From Oscillospiraceae bacterium (GTDB lineage: Bacteria > Bacillota > Clostridia > Oscillospirales > Acutalibacteraceae), in NCBI GenBank assembly GCA_022650485.1, contig JALCPP010000006.1, positions 1 to 64,000 of the forward strand: a stretch of DNA of 64,000 bases, read 5' to 3'. How positions within the stretch are numbered: position 1 is the stretch's first letter; each line of letters opens with the position of its first letter. This document shows, piece by piece, positions 4,327 to 23,415 of this stretch. Made by a program: the position numbers and the translations under genes. The notes below the pieces were generated by a model. That model saw only the letters and a program-made list of their open reading frames with translations. It was not told the origin of the DNA and ran no database searches.

Positions 4327-4450
4327 CAGGCCGGTGGTATCTGCAAAAATATTCCGGTTTGCACGGTGACGCCCGGCTCAGGCAACGCCTCATTTGAAAC
4401 CGGAACAGCCCGCAGCACGGCATACATATCAAAGTGCCGCATTATAAGAA

Positions 4451-4487
4451 AAGTCCCCCAAATCCAAACGATTTGGGGGACTTTTAC
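4451..4487 (+). terminator. Terminator after the ArsB-type operon
   Basis: Perfect 13-bp stem AAGTCCCCCAAAT/ATTTGGGGGACTT with a 7-base loop and a following T run. Being symmetrical with flanking A and T runs it could work in both directions. Confidence 0.9.
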
Positions 4488-4492
4488 AAACC

Positions 4493-4524
4493 ATGCCCGC
4501 CCGGCAGCTTCACCGGGCGGGCAT
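4493..4524 (-). terminator. Second strong hairpin, probable end of the ECF operon
   Basis: Perfect 12-bp GC-rich stem (4493-4504 with 4513-4524), 8-base loop. The T tract on the minus side is weak, so termination may depend on this and the neighbouring hairpin together. Confidence 0.65.
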
Positions 4525-4555
4525 ATTTATGTTCTGAAAAAAGGGGAAACAGCCG

Positions 4556-5122
4556 TTAAACCTTCGGAATAATGGTTTGAATTTTTTGCAGTCTGGGTGC
4601 CAAAAGGACAACGACAAACGGAGTAAGCGCGATGGGAACGACGTCCGCAATCCCAATCCAGATCACGCAGTACCAATAGCTGAGCCCGGAGAAGAAGGCA
4701 AGGGAGAAACTGGTGGTAAGAATCATCAGGCATCCAAACAGGATGGACCAAAACATGGATTTGCCGATAAATTCCTTCTTGTGATCCATGTACTCGTCCA
4801 GGGTCTTCTGTTTGAGCATAATCAGCGCAGGAAGCGCCGCGCTTAAACCGACCGTGATTCCGTCCGCCAGCAGTGTGTGGGGCGCGATGAAATACCCGCC
4901 CAGCAGGGACCAGACCAGCGTGCCGATATAGCCCGCAAAGAACCCCGTGACCGGTCCGAACAGAAAAGCGATGGTTACGGTTACAAACGCGAATGTTCTG
5001 AAATGGACCGCACCCGGAATCAGCGGGATCGGGCTTCCGTAAGCCCACAAAACCCCTGTGAACACCCCGAAAATTGCAAAAAAGATAATGTTGACAAATG
5101 AGAACTTCTTTTTAGCTGCCAT
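4556..5122 (-). CDS. ECF transporter S component (substrate-binding membrane subunit)
   Basis: 188 residues with about six hydrophobic segments, a short cytoplasmic basic N-terminus (MAAKKKFSF) and the general S-component layout. In this family the S subunit binds the small molecule and topples in the membrane when engaged by EcfT. It is the last gene of the riboswitch-controlled operon, 11 bases after the amidohydrolase gene. The specific S family was not recognised. From the riboswitch and the phosphoribosyltransferase upstream a purine-like ligand is inferred. RBS AAGGAGAG. Confidence 0.8.
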   Translation of the reverse strand: MAAKKKFSFVNIIFFAIFGVFTGVLWAYGSPIPLIPGAVHFRTFAFVTVTIAFLFGPVTGFFAGYIGTLVWSLLGGYFIAPHTLLADGITVGLSAALPALIMLKQKTLDEYMDHKKEFIGKSMFWSILFGCLMILTTSFSLAFFSGLSYWYCVIWIGIADVVPIALTPFVVVLLAPRLQKIQTIIPKV

Positions 5123-5133
5123 GACTACTCTCC

Positions 5134-5913
5134 TTAATAATTTGTTTTTAGAAATGCCGCAAAAATATTGTGAAGCTCCTCAACCGCATAGTCGAGCAGC
5201 TTTCTGCCTTTTTCCGCCGTGGCGTAAGTGGGCGCGCCGATCACGCCGCTGTGTGTTACGTCTTTGGTTTTCCACCCGGCGGTATAGGGCCCGAGGATGG
5301 TGACATAGTCGTTGTCCCGCAGACACTCAACCGGATCCTCATCCACCGCAAGTTCCATGTGAACGGTTTCCGGACGGATGGCGAGCATCAGCGATGTTTC
5401 CAGTTCGCACGCATGAAACACACCGTATTTTCCAGACTGTTTCAAACCCTTCAGTCCCTTGTCCCAGAACGGTGTAAACCACCAGTCAAAAACAAAAACA
5501 TCCAGCCCAAGGTCAATTCTCAGGTCACGGCTGATCATGTTCAGCATGTCCGTATTTCCGCCGTGGCTGTTAAAAAGCACCAGTTTACGAAATCCGCTTT
5601 TCGCAATTGCAGAAGCGAGGTCGTGTAAAAGCGAGTAATAGGTTTGTGTCCCGAAGGTCATTGTGCCGGGAAAGCCCATGTGTTCATTGCTTTTTCCCAC
5701 AAAAAGCTGCGGGGCAAAGATCAGGTTTCCCTCGTCAAAATTCTGTTTTTTTACAATCAAATCAATCAGTGAGGAAAGAATGATGGAGTCTGTTCCCACA
5801 GGCAGATGGGCTCCGTGCTGCTCCGTCGCGCCCGTTGGAAGCAATACAATTGTCTTGGACTTGTCAAGCCCCGCAATTTCATCCCTGGTCAGATTTTCCC
5901 ATTTAGCGATCAT
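5134..5913 (-). CDS. Creatininase-family metal-dependent amidohydrolase
   Basis: 259 residues, the usual length. Family metal-site motifs are in order: GATEQHGAHLPVGTD (about 28-42), NSHGGN (115-120) and HACELETS (167-174), giving the Glu/His/Asp set that binds two divalent ions. Known members hydrolyse cyclic or linear amides (creatinine, formamidopyrimidines in archaea, mycofactocin precursor). Its position inside an ECF uptake operon under a purine riboswitch suggests it processes the imported compound; this is inference. RBS AGGAGAA before ATG; 18 bases after ecfT. Confidence 0.88.
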   Translation of the reverse strand: MIAKWENLTRDEIAGLDKSKTIVLLPTGATEQHGAHLPVGTDSIILSSLIDLIVKKQNFDEGNLIFAPQLFVGKSNEHMGFPGTMTFGTQTYYSLLHDLASAIAKSGFRKLVLFNSHGGNTDMLNMISRDLRIDLGLDVFVFDWWFTPFWDKGLKGLKQSGKYGVFHACELETSLMLAIRPETVHMELAVDEDPVECLRDNDYVTILGPYTAGWKTKDVTHSGVIGAPTYATAEKGRKLLDYAVEELHNIFAAFLKTNY

Positions 5914-5931
5914 CCCTGCATTCTCCTTTTT

Positions 5932-6750
5932 TTACGATAGTTTGATATAAAACATCATTTGCAAAACAATTGCCACAACGGTGGAAAACACCGTTACGGC
6001 GGTAAACGCCAGGTCCCTCCAGGTGGGTCGAATCACCTTGTAGGAAGAACGCTTCACTTTAAAATTAAGCTTGTAATAATGCATGGCAAGCGAAATACTG
6101 TGCCCTTTTCCCAGCACACGGAATAAAAGCGGAAGGGATACAATCACGTAGTTTTTCATTTTGGCAAACGCGCCGCATTTTTCCACTTCCAGCCCGCGGG
6201 AGCTCTGCGCTTCCATAATCGTGCTGAACTCCTTAATAATCATCGGGATAATCTGAAAGACAAGACCAACCCCGAACGCAACGGAATACGGCACCTTCCA
6301 GGAACGCAGGCCAGAGATAATCTGGCTGAAATTTGTCGACAAAATCACCGTGTAAAAAACGGAAATCATTAAAAACACCCGCATGTCAAACACGGCGCCT
6401 TTGTAAAGGTCGAACCATTCCAGGCTGAACAGATACGTTCCGCCGAACAGGGGAAACGTACTGCGGAAAATAACGGGGCCGTCATTTCGCGTGAACGCGC
6501 CCAGAACCAGCCACAAAAGAAAAATAAACAGCAAAAGCACTTTGACTTTTGCCGCAAGAACGGCAATGTATTTTCCAATGTGACTGCTGACCCAGATAAC
6601 CAGGAACACCAGAAACAGGAATAAAAGCGACACGCCGCTCATGACAAAAGACGTGAGAACAGAAATTACAATAAAAAAGAAAAATTTTGTTCTGGGGTCC
6701 AGCCGATGCAGAAACGAATCCAGTTCTACATACTGTAAAAAGTCATTCAT
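5932..6750 (-). CDS. ECF transporter transmembrane component EcfT (CbiQ family)
   Basis: 272 residues, CbiQ/EcfT family: four to five membrane segments and two cytoplasmic coupling helices. The first coupling motif is clear (SSRGLEVEK, about residues 182-190, family Ala-Arg-Gly). The second is weaker (SLAMHYYK), so one ATPase contact is diverged. EcfT links the S component to the ATPases. RBS GGAGGA precedes the start. It lies between the ATPase gene (22 bases) and the amidohydrolase gene (18 bases). Confidence 0.85.
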   Translation of the reverse strand: MNDFLQYVELDSFLHRLDPRTKFFFFIVISVLTSFVMSGVSLLFLFLVFLVIWVSSHIGKYIAVLAAKVKVLLLFIFLLWLVLGAFTRNDGPVIFRSTFPLFGGTYLFSLEWFDLYKGAVFDMRVFLMISVFYTVILSTNFSQIISGLRSWKVPYSVAFGVGLVFQIIPMIIKEFSTIMEAQSSRGLEVEKCGAFAKMKNYVIVSLPLLFRVLGKGHSISLAMHYYKLNFKVKRSSYKVIRPTWRDLAFTAVTVFSTVVAIVLQMMFYIKLS

Positions 6751-6772
6751 TCATGATCCTCCAATTACCGCA

Positions 6773-8437
6773 TCAGGACAATGTGCGGGAAATTCTGCCG
6801 GCAGCTTCCTGTACAAAGGAGTCGACATCGCAGCAAATTTCAGGGAAACCGAAGTACTTTGACAAAAGCACCACAGGCGGCAGCGATATGTTGATTTTTT
6901 TGAAAAGGTCGTCGCGCTCTGCCATGGACTTCGTGGAAGAATACGCCAGCTTCACGCCGTTATTCAAGACAAGAATGCGGTCTGAAACCCCGAAAACCAG
7001 CGGAATCTCATGGCTGATCAGGATAACTGTTTTGCCCTTTTTCGCCAGGTACCGGATAATCTGCTCCAGCTGGCTCTTAATATTTAAGTCCATGCCCAGT
7101 GTCGGCTCATCAAGGATGACAACCTCTGCGCTGGAAAAAAGGACGGAAAGGATGGTCAGCAAATGCTTTCTGCCCATGGAAAGATTGAGCGGAAGCTCTT
7201 CCTTCTCCTCGAGCAAGCCGTACCGTTTCAGGACATCGAGCGCTTTTTCCTCTGAAAATTTAACACCCTGAGCGCGTGCGCAGAAAGTCAGCTCTTTATA
7301 TACCGACTCTTCAAACAGCATATGCTCCGGATTCTGAAAAACAAGAATGATGTCACGGCTGATCTGTGCAACCGATTTTCCCGCGGTTTCAATCCCTTTG
7401 TAGCGCACCGTTCCCTCGGTGGGGCGGTAAAGTCCGTTCAGGTGCTTGACAAATGTGGTCTTTCCGGAACCGTTCTGGCCAATGATGGAAATGACTTTCC
7501 CGGGTTCAAATCCGGCGCTTACATCCATCAGGGCATGGAATCCGTCCTGAAAGGTTTTGCAGATTCCTTTCGCCTCCAGAACATCCCCGCTGTCATCCCG
7601 CGGCGTTTCCGGAACAGGGGACCTTGTTGCCGCCGGAAGGAAGCGCCCCAGAACACGTTTTGCGCCCTCTACGGTGTCGAACAGCGGAAGGTCCTCTATG
7701 TTTTCCGCAAGCCTGCGGTAAATTTCAACTTCCTGCGGGATGGTCACGCCCAGCGTTTTCTGGATTTCGAAGTTTTTGAAGAATTCCTCTTTCGTTCCGT
7801 TAAATACGACACGGCCGTCCGCAAGCCCGACGACATGGTCGACAATGCCGGAAAACCAGTCGAGGTTATTGTCCACAATCACGGTGGTCTGTCCGGTTTC
7901 CCTGAGCTGGTCCAGAATTGACTGAACCATTCTCTTTCCCTCGGGGTCCAGGGAACTGACGGGTTCGTCCATAATCAGGATATCGGGGTGCATCGCCAGC
8001 ACAGAGGCAATGCAGACCGCCTGACGCTGCCCGCCGGACAGCGTCGCGACCGAACGCCGCCGCAGATGCTGGATGTTGAGAAGGTCCAGCACATACTCCA
8101 CGCGCTCCGCGATTTTTCCGCTGTCCATGCCCATGTTTTCAATTCCGAATGAAATCGCGTCTTCCACGCCGTAGCCGAACAGCTGGTTTTCCGGGGACTG
8201 GCTGACAACGGAAACATTGACGTCCGTTCCCACGTCAATACTTCCCTTATAGACGCCCATCGGCATCAAATCCGGGATAACACCGCTGAGGATATTAATC
8301 AGCGTCGTTTTCCCGCATCCGCTCGGCCCGACAATGGCGGTTACCTGCGCCGGCTGAATTTCAAAGCTGACGTCTTTGAGAACCGCTTTCGCATTCTTAC
8401 TGTATTGATAGCTGATATTTTTAATTGAGAAGCTCAA
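6773..8437 (-). CDS. Fused ECF ATPase with two ABC nucleotide-binding domains
   Basis: 554 residues, two ABC ATPases in one chain, replacing separate EcfA and EcfA'. NBD1: Walker A GPSGCGKT (37-44), signature LSGGQ (133-137), Walker B ILIMDEP (153-159). NBD2: Walker A GQNGSGKT (320-327), Walker B VILDEPT (about 440-446), but its signature is LSMGRKH (419-425) instead of LSGGQ, so one composite ATP site may be impaired. The linker (about 265-290) is Pro-rich. It energises uptake through EcfT. Start is TTG at 8437, eight bases after AGGAGA. It follows the phosphoribosyltransferase gene by 35 bases. Confidence 0.9.
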   Translation of the reverse strand: MSFSIKNISYQYSKNAKAVLKDVSFEIQPAQVTAIVGPSGCGKTTLINILSGVIPDLMPMGVYKGSIDVGTDVNVSVVSQSPENQLFGYGVEDAISFGIENMGMDSGKIAERVEYVLDLLNIQHLRRRSVATLSGGQRQAVCIASVLAMHPDILIMDEPVSSLDPEGKRMVQSILDQLRETGQTTVIVDNNLDWFSGIVDHVVGLADGRVVFNGTKEEFFKNFEIQKTLGVTIPQEVEIYRRLAENIEDLPLFDTVEGAKRVLGRFLPAATRSPVPETPRDDSGDVLEAKGICKTFQDGFHALMDVSAGFEPGKVISIIGQNGSGKTTFVKHLNGLYRPTEGTVRYKGIETAGKSVAQISRDIILVFQNPEHMLFEESVYKELTFCARAQGVKFSEEKALDVLKRYGLLEEKEELPLNLSMGRKHLLTILSVLFSSAEVVILDEPTLGMDLNIKSQLEQIIRYLAKKGKTVILISHEIPLVFGVSDRILVLNNGVKLAYSSTKSMAERDDLFKKINISLPPVVLLSKYFGFPEICCDVDSFVQEAAGRISRTLS

Positions 8438-8472
8438 ATTCTTTATCTCCTATCGTAAATCACACGGACGCT

Positions 8473-9027
8473 TTACCGGGACGGCTTCATGGGGAAAACG
8501 GGCAGCTTTTCCAAATAAATAATGTCGCTGCGCTTTGCCGAATCGCCTTCCGCAAGAATTGCGGCTTTGCCCGCCACAATGCCGCCGGCTTTTTTCACCA
8601 GCGCCTCCATAGCTTTGATGGAATCGCCCGTGCTGATGACATCGTCCACAATTAAAATGCGTTTCCCGCGAATCAGCGCGCTTTCCTCTTTATCCAGGCA
8701 CAGAATCTGCTTTGCCTGCGTTGTGATGGAGTAAACTTCTGTCACAACAGGGTCCGCCATGTAAGGCTTGATGCTCTTTCTCGCCACAAAGTACCGGTTC
8801 ATGCCGAGAATCCTTGCAAGTTCCTGTACCAGCGGAATACCCTTTGCTTCCGCCGTGACCAGATAATCCACCTTCGGAACTTTTTTGCTCAGTTCCGCCG
8901 CCGCGTGAAGGACAAGCTCCGCATCCCCCAGAATGACAAAGCTCGCGATAGACAGAGAATCGGTAATCCGAATAATCGGCAGCGTTCTCGTCAGCCCCGC
9001 GACATGAAGTTCGTAAGTATCGTTCAT
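8473..9027 (-). CDS. Purine-type phosphoribosyltransferase
   Basis: 184 residues. The PRPP-binding loop ILIVDDVISTGDS is at 124-136 and a flexible-loop Lys region (RKSIKPYM) at about 83-90, as in adenine/xanthine phosphoribosyltransferases. The reaction would be base + PRPP giving the nucleotide and pyrophosphate, a salvage step that traps an imported base. It is the first gene after the riboswitch terminator, with GGGGG about 7 bases before the ATG. Base specificity (guanine, xanthine or adenine) cannot be read with certainty; guanine-class control favours guanine or xanthine. Confidence 0.88.
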   Translation of the reverse strand: MNDTYELHVAGLTRTLPIIRITDSLSIASFVILGDAELVLHAAAELSKKVPKVDYLVTAEAKGIPLVQELARILGMNRYFVARKSIKPYMADPVVTEVYSITTQAKQILCLDKEESALIRGKRILIVDDVISTGDSIKAMEALVKKAGGIVAGKAAILAEGDSAKRSDIIYLEKLPVFPMKPSR

Positions 9028-9054
9028 CTTCCAGCCCCCTGTAAAAAATAAAAA

Positions 9055-9081
9055 CAGACCGAGAACGGTGTTCCCAGTCTG
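9055..9081 (-). terminator. Riboswitch-controlled transcription terminator
   Basis: Minus-strand hairpin with CAGAC/GTCTG outer and GGGAAC/GTTCTC inner stems, followed by a T-rich run (9043-9054). The 5' arm contains GAACACC, complementary to GGTGTTC in the 3' strand of riboswitch P1 and just beyond, giving an antiterminator. Ligand binding would lock P1 and favour termination. Confidence 0.85.
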
Positions 9082-9148
9082 CCAACAAATGAAATGACAA
9101 AATCCGACAGAGCAGCCTCTTCGGCCACCCTATCAAACGACAAGTAAG

Positions 9149-9222
9149 AACACCATAGCGTAGGCAATTTTCGGTTGCCACATAGAAACGCCCGCACCGT
9201 ATCTGCGGGCTTATATGGAGTT
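9149..9222 (-). promoter_or_regulatory. Purine riboswitch aptamer, guanine class
   Basis: Minus-strand three-way junction. P1 pairs AAC-CCATA with TATGG-GTT (one T-T mismatch). P2 is AGCCCGC/GCGGGC with loop AGATACGGT. J2/3 is TTTCTAT. P3 is GTGGCAA/TTGCC-T-AC with loop CCGAAAA. J3/1 is GCT before ATGG. The loop-loop GG/CC contacts of the family are kept. The nucleotide equivalent to position 74 is C, the guanine-class identity, while the preceding base is G where A is usual. It precedes a phosphoribosyltransferase and ECF uptake genes, which fits repression by a purine. Confidence 0.85.
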
Positions 9223-9267
9223 ATCTGACACAATATTCAGTTATCTCTCTTTTTTTGCAACGTTACG

Positions 9268-9296
9268 ATTATATCATGCAAATTCCGCGTTTTCAA
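9268..9296 (-). promoter_or_regulatory. Promoter of the purine-riboswitch operon
   Basis: Minus strand TTGAAA (9291-9296), 17-base spacer, TATAAT (9268-9273), about 45 bases upstream of riboswitch P1. Confidence 0.85.
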
Positions 9297-16590: not shown

Positions 16591-16850
16591 AAAAAAAGCT
16601 TTCGCCCCCTAAAGAGGCGAAAGCTTCAGCTTCGCGGTACCACTCTTCCTTACCGCCAAAACGGCGGTATCTCGCCGCGCATCCAACAATGCGCTCTCCG
16701 CTAACGGGGAGTTCCGGGACGGCTTACTCGAACCAGCTTTCAGCCTCCTGCTCAAGGGCGATTTCATGTGGGCTCCGCACCGCCTCGCACCATCCGGCGG
16801 CTCTCTGAATGCGGAGGGACCCGCAGTCCTTCCCTATCAACGCAATTAAA
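16591..16850 (-). promoter_or_regulatory. T-box leader, isoleucine specifier (ATC), for ilvB-ilvA-ridA
   Basis: Minus-strand leader with AG-bulge text CAGAGAG, GGTG, specifier loop TGAA-ATC-G followed by CCC and TTGAG, the T-box core AGAGTGGTACCGCG (about 16634-16648), and a terminator AGCTTTCGCC/GGCGAAAGCT with a T7 run (16591-16626). The specifier triplet ATC reads isoleucine. The antiterminator TGGT pairs with ACCA, fitting the A73 discriminator of tRNA-Ile. Uncharged tRNA-Ile would allow read-through. Confidence 0.9.
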
Positions 16851-17029: not shown

Positions 17030-17322
17030 AGAATATCAAAAAAATGCAGTGAGCGGGCAAAAGTTCGGTTTCAATCACTCCCAGAGAGCCGCCGGAGGTG
17101 CGAGGCGGCAGGATTTTCCGATACGACATCACCCGTGAGCATCCGGTTTGAAAGGCCAAGCGCCGACTAGAGCCGGGCGGTTCCGACCCGTTACAGCCGG
17201 ACGTATTTGGTGGGCCCGCCTGATACGGTTGAGGTGGCCGCAATGCTGCGGCAAACAGAGTGGTAACGCGGAGAATTGATTTCCCGTCTCTGATTTAAAA
17301 AATCAGAGACGGGGATTTTTTT
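17030..17322 (+). promoter_or_regulatory. T-box leader, isoleucine specifier (ATC), upstream of a CstA-family gene
   Basis: Stem I shows CAGAGAG with a GCCGCC/GGCGGC distal helix around GGAGGTG. The specifier region is CGAC-ATC-A followed by CCC and GTGAG, which aligns base for base with the ilvB leader, so the triplet is ATC (Ile). The T-box core is AGAGTGGTAACGCGG (17258-17272) and the terminator is a perfect 12-13 bp stem CCCGTCTCTGATT/AATCAGAGACGGG plus T7 (17283-17322). TGGT fits the A73 discriminator. Confidence 0.88.
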
Positions 17323-23145: not shown

Positions 23146-23415
23146 AAAGCCGCCTCCGTCCCCAAATGGGGACGGAGGCGGCTTTCACCGCGGTTCCACT
23201 CCGCTTTATTGCTTAAAGTACCTGTAACGGGGCCGGCCGTGCGGGGATACTGCGTGCATTCCCCCCGCCTGCTCGCGGATGCATTTCACCCCCCCGTTTT
23301 GCCAAAAGCGCTTTCAGCCTGTCGACGCTTTCTCTCTGCTGCCGCCAAGGGAATTACTTCTTCCGGTCACTGCATTTCAATTTATTTCATAATAGCCGAA
23401 ACAGAGTTCCGATGT
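23146..23415 (-). promoter_or_regulatory. T-box leader, cysteine specifier (TGC), for cysE-cysS
   Basis: Specifier region TGAAA-TGC-ATCC then GCGAG gives TGC (Cys). The AG-bulge text CAGAGAG precedes it. The T-box core is GAGTGGAACCGCGG (about 23188-23202). The terminator is a perfect 18-bp stem AAAGCCGCCTCCGTCCCC with its complement (23146-23185). Antiterminator TGGA predicts a discriminator U, which matches tRNA-Cys and independently supports the call. Confidence 0.92.

Follow-up and report, generated by a model that had tools for sequence, protein, structure and literature searches.

A guanine-class riboswitch upstream of an energy-coupling factor importer operon with a creatininase-family hydrolase in an Oscillospiraceae bacterium: a candidate system for purine uptake and salvage

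Organisation of the operon

The first 64,000 nucleotides of contig JALCPP010000006.1 (forward strand) from an Oscillospiraceae bacterium of the Acutalibacteraceae (assembly GCA_022650485.1), analysed as a whole and referred to here as the window, contain five minus-strand genes located downstream of a guanine-class riboswitch. These genes encode, in order, a phosphoribosyltransferase (PRT), a fused energy-coupling factor (ECF) ATPase (EcfAA), EcfT, a creatininase-family hydrolase (CRT) and an S component (S), and are separated by gaps of 35, 22, 18 and 11 nt according to the open reading frame (ORF) table. The operon extends from a promoter-like site at position 9296 to two hairpins ending near position 4443, and comprises the following features:

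9268..9296, minus strand: promoter-like site, TTGAAA-17-TATAAT with extended TG (11 of 12 matches)
9136..9238, minus strand: guanine-class purine riboswitch aptamer (RF00167, 66.1 bits; P1, P2 and P3 covariation in 15 leaders)
9102..9138, minus strand: extra 16-pair hairpin between aptamer and terminator (hairpin scan; outside the switch model)
9053..9083, minus strand: riboswitch terminator, with a 5' arm complementary to the P1 3' strand as an antiterminator (hairpin scan, pairing, covariation)
8473..9027, minus strand: PRT, adenine-type phosphoribosyltransferase (PRK07322, 245.6 bits, cut-off 143)
6773..8437, minus strand: EcfAA, fused ECF ATPase EcfA-EcfA', TTG start (two ABC stretches; TIGR04521, TIGR04520)
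5932..6750, minus strand: EcfT, CbiQ family (PF02361, 93.4 bits, cut-off 25)
5134..5913, minus strand: CRT, creatininase-family hydrolase (PF02633, 231.4 bits, cut-off 31.3; fold Z 23.9 to creatininase)
4556..5122, minus strand: S, ECF S component by fold (predicted model; best 4hzu_S, Z 17.0)
4443..4526, minus strand: two strong hairpins 3' of S (folding energy z -6.7)

A promoter, a guanine-class aptamer, a terminator and five tightly spaced genes had already been proposed in a preliminary description of this locus, and this observation is confirmed, with the RF00167 score, the family matches and the gaps of 11-35 nt as its basis. A promoter scan of the region gave 7 sites, versus 4.8 (standard deviation 2.2) in shuffled sequences, which is not above chance overall. 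The site at 9268..9296 is nevertheless favoured by its position and by a TATAAT-like box that precedes the aptamer in the other riboswitch-bearing copies inspected by eye (the region L006 begins at the aptamer itself). Terminator-like hairpins amount to 12 sites in the region, versus 7.8 (standard deviation 2.7) in shuffles. The two strong hairpins 3' of S are the probable end of the transcript.

The riboswitch leader

The aptamer score has to be compared with a gathering score of 37 bits for the Rfam covariance model, and no other match was reported in the 2.55-Mb genome of the organism (150 of 191 candidates scored). Its structure was evaluated in an alignment of the leaders of 15 riboswitch-bearing copies of the operon. 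In the aptamer and terminator helices, 13 pairs have changed on both sides, a number reached in 0 of 500 shuffles, and 89.4% of the cells are paired, versus at most 50.8% when partners are slid. The P1 3' strand and the bases following it can also form an 11-bp helix with the terminator's 5' arm (9083-9053), an alternative pairing that was equalled by one of 200 shuffles in each of three leaders. This antiterminator helix is paired in 89.7% of cells, versus at most 57.6% when slid. It varies too little to show covariation: its score was equalled or exceeded in 45 of 500 shuffles, and its percentage of paired cells in 142 of 500; one leader, that of L022, carries an altered stretch within this region.

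Positions U22, U51 and C74, described as ligand contacts of the purine riboswitch in the available part of PMC9295807, are retained in all 15 leaders, in our own register of the junctions. The anatomy of the leader is, judged from its sequence, that of a guanine OFF switch. No other Rfam element reached its gathering score upstream of the PRT gene, either in the window or in the loci scanned, and an overlooked vitamin riboswitch was rejected on these grounds.

The encoded proteins

PRT belongs to the adenine phosphoribosyltransferase subfamily PRK07322. Its nearest relatives of solved structure are the PDB chains 5zgo, 6fsp, 7f06 and 1vch, three of them named for adenine (one as an adenine phosphopsicosyltransferase) and the last, 1vch, with no substrate in its name. 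Judging by its name, 7f06 uses another sugar phosphate. The substrate of PRT itself may differ. Phosphoribosyltransferase genes in the genome of the organism amount to eight matches to PF00156.

All the parts of an ECF importer are present: two EcfA domains, EcfT and, by fold, S. The two ABC stretches of EcfAA pass curated cut-offs (TIGR04521, 357.3 bits, cut-off 330; TIGR04520, 334.4 bits, cut-off 315). The sequence of S is far less informative, with 22.3 bits against PF07155, below the cut-off of 26.7, no NCBIfam match, and no match to PDB sequences up to E = 1. However, its predicted model (predicted local distance difference test, pLDDT, 82) retrieves ECF S components in the first ranks of a Foldseek search, the best at E 0.013 and none below 0.001. 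In VIA-align the best match is 4hzu_S (Z 17.0, root-mean-square deviation 2.8, 160 residues, 14% identity), followed by TmRibU and ThiT. According to this model, S is an ECF S component; a fold match at 14% identity does not tell its ligand.

The predicted model of CRT (pLDDT 85) superimposes on the creatininase fold over 236 residues with 24% identity, which, together with PF02633, places the protein in the creatininase superfamily. With respect to the preliminary description, which had called it a creatininase-family hydrolase, one point agrees less well, namely that CRT does not qualify as creatininase proper: it obtains 111 bits against the creatininase model TIGR04448, whose cut-off is 235, and remains below every NCBIfam equivalog cut-off. 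Moreover, it carries HGG in place of the HYE of creatininase, with a glycine aligned at E122 (a creatininase structure is named for the mutant E122Q), a residue that we take to be a metal ligand. As aligned, the E, H, D and H positions of the creatininase metal site are kept. An identity as creatininase proper was rejected on the basis of the TIGR04448 score and the HGG motif.

Recurrence and distribution of the operon

A search with CRT through a collection of 84,980 species, each represented by a single genome, returned 30 loci, and in 26 of them all five genes are found in the same order and on the same strand, so that the hypothesis of chance neighbours was rejected. In two other loci (L016 and L029) the operon is cut by contig ends, and in the remaining two (L032 and L034) no such ECF genes lie beside CRT. 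PRT is kept in every ECF-bearing locus whose contig reaches its position (27 of 27). The preliminary description had suggested looking for this gene set under purine riboswitches in other genomes, and the set does recur. The hosts belong to clostridial lineages and to Sporolactobacillus.

A tree was built with 28 rows, namely the window, 18 of the 28 operon loci, both L032 and L034, and another seven relatives, and in this tree the two Sporolactobacillus rows fall among clostridial ones. The gene for S was found in two of the four genomes of the genus of the window (one of the four being 56% complete). In the order it was found in 3 of 295 genomes at E 0.001, strongly only in the organism itself, the other two matches being weak and partial. 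Among 398 genomes of the phylum, it was detected in the organism itself and in genome G505, with one further weak match containing stops. This patchy distribution of S is likely due to lateral spread.

Some peculiarities of individual copies can be mentioned. Seven riboswitch-less copies (L018, L019, L020, L021, L024, L026 and L033) share, by eye, a promoter-like stretch of the type GTGACA-17-CATAAT upstream of PRT. In L010, an ORF at 1662-2705, transposase-like by eye, ends 200 nt before PRT. The CRT of Sporanaerobium hydrogeniformans (L028, 6001-6776) is split into two frames (residues 1-227, then 228-259), and looks frameshifted near its end. In the two Sporolactobacillus genomes of L015 and L023, a group II intron element (RF02005, 7456-7690, plus strand) lies about 100 nt after S.

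CRT relatives outside the operon

At an E value of 1e-45, the CRT of G505 matches proteins in 7 of the 398 genomes, the organism studied here and G505 included. In three of them (G481, G392 and G341) the relative follows a gene for 8-oxoguanine deaminase (591, 579 and 588 bits, respectively, cut-off 532), and these loci also hold another amidohydrolase and an ABC importer. In G647, a gene for 5'-deoxyadenosine deaminase (729 bits, cut-off 522) lies beside the CRT relative on the other strand. The CRT of L032 (55% identity) is surrounded by genes for a DeoR-type regulator, BtpA, a PnrA-type importer and a nucleoside hydrolase. The ABC permeases of L032 and of the G481, G392 and G341 loci fall in the same broad Pfam family, which also holds sugar and amino-acid importers.

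This arrangement of a CRT relative after genes for 8-oxoguanine deaminase and another amidohydrolase of no curated family, next to an ABC importer, is that of the regions L060 (3438-6935), L062 (5905-9368) and L063 (3632-7154), and possibly represents a type of locus for the breakdown of oxidised purines. The 415-residue amidohydrolase beside CRT in L060 and L063 passes no curated cut-off.

A divergent module among xanthine-breakdown genes

The divergent S of G505 was found with a profile of S (1e-53). Of 88 positions invariant in 28 copies of S, 56 are identical in G505, including P31, H40, R42, W71, H82, D87, W125, W155 and D160. In the corresponding region, L047, the genes for S, EcfAA, EcfT and CRT (45, 37, 35 and 51% identity) form a module placed directly before genes for an isochorismatase-like amidase and a UbiD decarboxylase. 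The cluster also contains two adenine-deaminase-like genes, an NCS1 permease, a cyclase of the arylformamidase kind, FtcD (341 bits, cut-off 221) and a cyclodeaminase (PF04961, 182 bits; below the FchA cut-off). The adenine-deaminase-like gene scanned obtains 453 bits, below the adenine deaminase cut-off of 472.5; the two genes (254-2071 and 5081-6904) are 81% identical and lie about 3 kb apart. In genome G694, of the same genus as G505, this set recurs with a single adenine-deaminase-like gene, and the 20 kb read contain no match to NCS1.

According to the portion of PMC3519856 that was available, the anaerobic breakdown of xanthine proceeds via 4-ureido-5-imidazolecarboxylate and formiminoglycine to glycine. 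The accessible part of PMC12507026 credits Tong et al. 2023 with identifying the genes of the xanthinase pathway. The enzyme kinds encoded in the G505/G694 cluster fit this process, although their assignment to individual steps should be regarded as provisional. Aminoimidazole and imidazolone steps lie between the intermediates of the pathway, and the enzymes identified in 2023 reportedly comprise four hydrolases of different families and a prenyl-FMN (flavin mononucleotide) decarboxylase. The G505/G694 module constitutes a second link to purines, one that is independent of the riboswitch.

The G505 adenine-deaminase-like protein was used at 1e-120 as a marker of breakdown clusters among the 398 genomes. 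It matched in 29 of them, 12 at 57% identity or more; the other 17, with 39-42% identity, were left out as another group, and the addition of G694 gave 13 cluster genomes. In these, a dihydropyrimidinase-like gene was sought at 1e-100 and CRT at 1e-25. The former is present in eight genomes, none of which has CRT, whereas CRT is present in four of the five without it (G505, G694, G341 and G481), G506 having neither. This mutual exclusion reaches a Fisher p of 0.007 by genome and 0.012 by genus, in a comparison made post hoc on draft genomes, with cut-offs of our own choice and with G505 and G694 belonging to one genus; besides, the CRT of G341 and G481 is only 38-40% identical and lies at another locus. 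Co-occurrence of CRT with the cluster is seen in 3 of the 398 genomes, the cluster being found in 3 of 7 genomes with CRT and in 9 of 391 without it (p 0.0007). No CRT match was present in another 11 cluster regions, several of which are truncated at contig ends, and for this reason it was rejected that CRT is a constant step of all xanthine-breakdown clusters. The exclusion pattern fits CRT standing in for a ring-opening enzyme.

The dihydropyrimidinase-like gene in L087 (648-2063), with homologues in G380, G415, G464, G457, G512, G490 and G418, exceeds the cut-off for the allantoinase AllB (382 versus 358 bits). Such genes may be misnamed in annotation, and the company they keep suggests a purine or imidazole substrate.

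None of the enzymes of the xanthinase pathway is encoded in the window operon. In the rest of this genome, where the search covered two of the pathway genes and the others were not sought, no match to the adenine-deaminase-like protein was found at 1e-120, and the best dihydropyrimidinase-like match has 33% identity.

Proposed function and alternative explanations

Taking these data together, we consider it reasonably probable that the operon is a guanine-repressed ECF system for the uptake and salvage of a purine-type base or of an altered (e.g., ring-opened) purine. When guanine is scarce, the P1 3' strand and the following bases would pair with the 5' arm of the terminator, allowing transcription; when guanine is bound, P1 would be held, the terminator would form and the operon would be switched off. 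The dedicated importer (S, EcfT and EcfA-EcfA') would bring in the compound, whose cyclic amide bond would be cut or, in the reverse direction, closed by CRT, and the resulting base would be converted to a nucleotide by PRT. A purine-type cargo is preferred because of the riboswitch contacts, the covarying helices, the recurrent gene order, the fold of S, the company of the G505/G694 module, the neighbours of CRT and the family of PRT. The preliminary description had put forward that a purine, or a compound from purine breakdown, enters by an ECF route, is opened by the hydrolase and is salvaged by PRT; this interpretation is supported by the recurrence of the five-gene set, by the constant presence of PRT and by the location of the G505/G694 module in a purine/imidazole cluster.

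Several observations weigh against this proposal. RF00167 reaches its gathering score in only 15 of 29 leaders (those of the 26 complete loci, L029, the window and L048, from the same genus as the window), 14 lacking it. In the tree, the eight riboswitch rows form one clade (100/100) together with L010, where the riboswitch is absent. It was therefore probably gained or kept once, and its copies, being confined to one clade, count as one piece of evidence, not fifteen. The module of G505 has neither a riboswitch nor PRT. Furthermore, an adenine-type PRT has no obvious match with a guanine-type switch, the CRT relatives of G392, G426 and G647 occur without the breakdown cluster, and that of G426 is accompanied by phosphotransferase system-like genes (by eye) and an aldolase-like gene, with no purine link. 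Related operons devoid of any such link had been named beforehand as a finding that would tell against a purine role; the riboswitch is missing from 14 of 29 copies, but PRT is retained in all the ECF-bearing loci that reach its position, and the version lacking both sits in a purine/imidazole breakdown cluster. The weak point is the fit of CRT with PRT, as an enzyme that only opened xanthine would compete with salvage. There are two ways out: CRT could work in the direction of ring closure, or its hydrolysis could free a base such as 5-aminoimidazole-4-carboxamide. The reactions of creatininase and dihydroorotase are reversible, and adenine phosphoribosyltransferases can accept 5-aminoimidazole-4-carboxamide.

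A sharper version of the favoured proposal, rather than its opposite, would make CRT an alternative xanthine amidohydrolase that opens the pyrimidine ring of ECF-imported xanthine or a close relative and is not related to the dihydropyrimidinase-like enzyme. CRT would then replace the other enzyme in breakdown clusters, and in the riboswitch operon the base would be shared between PRT and ring opening. The position of the G505/G694 module, directly before the isochorismatase-like and UbiD genes in two genomes without the dihydropyrimidinase-like gene at 1e-100, argues for it, as do the presence of CRT in four of five cluster genomes lacking that gene and in none of eight having it, and the adjoining 8-oxoguanine deaminases of G481, G392 and G341. 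Against this, the comparison has the restrictions stated above, including the distant CRT of G341 and G481 and the absence of both genes from G506, the opening of xanthine would be wasteful in a salvage operon, and the genome studied here lacks the adenine-deaminase-like match. We regard this version as rather doubtful. Going further, CRT could be a second, unrelated kind of xanthinase from the creatininase superfamily, which in the riboswitch operons acts as a ring-closing enzyme: the ECF system would import the ring-opened waste of purine-fermenting neighbours (e.g., 4-ureido-5-imidazolecarboxylate), CRT would convert it to a purine base and PRT to a nucleotide, all being turned off at high guanine. 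This scheme is speculative and quite improbable.

The cargo might instead be a pyrimidine or a vitamin-like compound, such as hydroxymethylpyrimidine, guanine being sensed only because the pathway draws on purine precursors. This would agree with the best fold match of S, 4hzu_S, which is HmpT, the hydroxymethylpyrimidine S component, and with the following ones, TmRibU and ThiT. However, so distant a match is uninformative on the ligand, the operon has no vitamin gene, no thiamine pyrophosphate (TPP), FMN or other vitamin element reaches gathering score in the 31 loci or in the window leader, and the company in G505 is that of purine/imidazole breakdown, all of which makes such a cargo unlikely. 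As for the scavenging of a non-purine nitrogen heterocycle (creatinine, hydantoin or allantoin), it could be suggested by the creatininase fold of CRT and by the gene following it in G505, of the isochorismatase family with weak carbamoyl amidohydrolase matches. We give it very little credence, given the low creatininase score and the HGG motif of CRT, and it would leave PRT and the guanine switch without a role.

Relation to known systems and significance

Among known systems, the queuosine salvage operon queK-qrtT-queL of Clostridioides difficile comes closest to this arrangement, as far as it is described in the consulted part of PMC11477304. There, too, a riboswitch for a purine-like base precedes an ECF S component and a hydrolase that salvages the import. 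That operon, however, has a preQ1 switch, a shared ECF core and a queuosine hydrolase plus lyase, whereas the window operon has a guanine switch, its own EcfAA and EcfT, a creatininase-family hydrolase and PRT. The same part of that source treats xpt and purine permease genes under guanine riboswitches, which resemble the present case in placing a guanine OFF switch before a purine phosphoribosyltransferase or importer. Nevertheless, the guanine-switched importers known from it are AgzA-family permeases, not ECF systems, and the phosphoribosyltransferase is of the xanthine type, not PRK07322.

With the ECF importers using RibU, ThiT, BioY or HmpT, the window system shares the EcfA domains, EcfT and the fold of S, but differs in its fused EcfA-EcfA' encoded in a dedicated operon. 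Among the VIA rows, S has at most 18% identity to solved ECF S components, except for CbiM (21%). CRT shares with the creatininases of TIGR04448 and their superfamily the fold and the four metal positions, and departs from them in score and in the HGG motif. In relation to the anaerobic xanthinase clusters (PMC12507026 and PMC3519856, in their available portions), the G505/G694 copy lies among such genes, unlike the window operon, which is devoid of those enzymes. The riboswitch-regulon survey PMC3766115 treats transporters of purines and their precursors as a class, for which no ECF system is named in the portion available. Likewise, no purine ECF system, nor this operon, was found in the accessible portions of the literature on ECF transporters or creatininase-family genes in connection with purines.

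Elsewhere in the window, three T-box leaders were detected at gathering score (16610-16849, minus strand; 17040-17294, plus strand; 23171-23379, minus strand).

Vitamins and metals are the main cargoes for which ECF importers are known. If the proposed function is correct, purine-type compounds would be added to the range of these importers, and a role would be given to a clade of creatininase-like proteins whose current names reflect only their resemblance. It would also reveal how Bacillota of gut and soil can obtain purines or purine waste, and it raises the testable question of whether a creatininase-family enzyme may act as a stand-in for the ring-opening enzyme of anaerobic xanthine breakdown.

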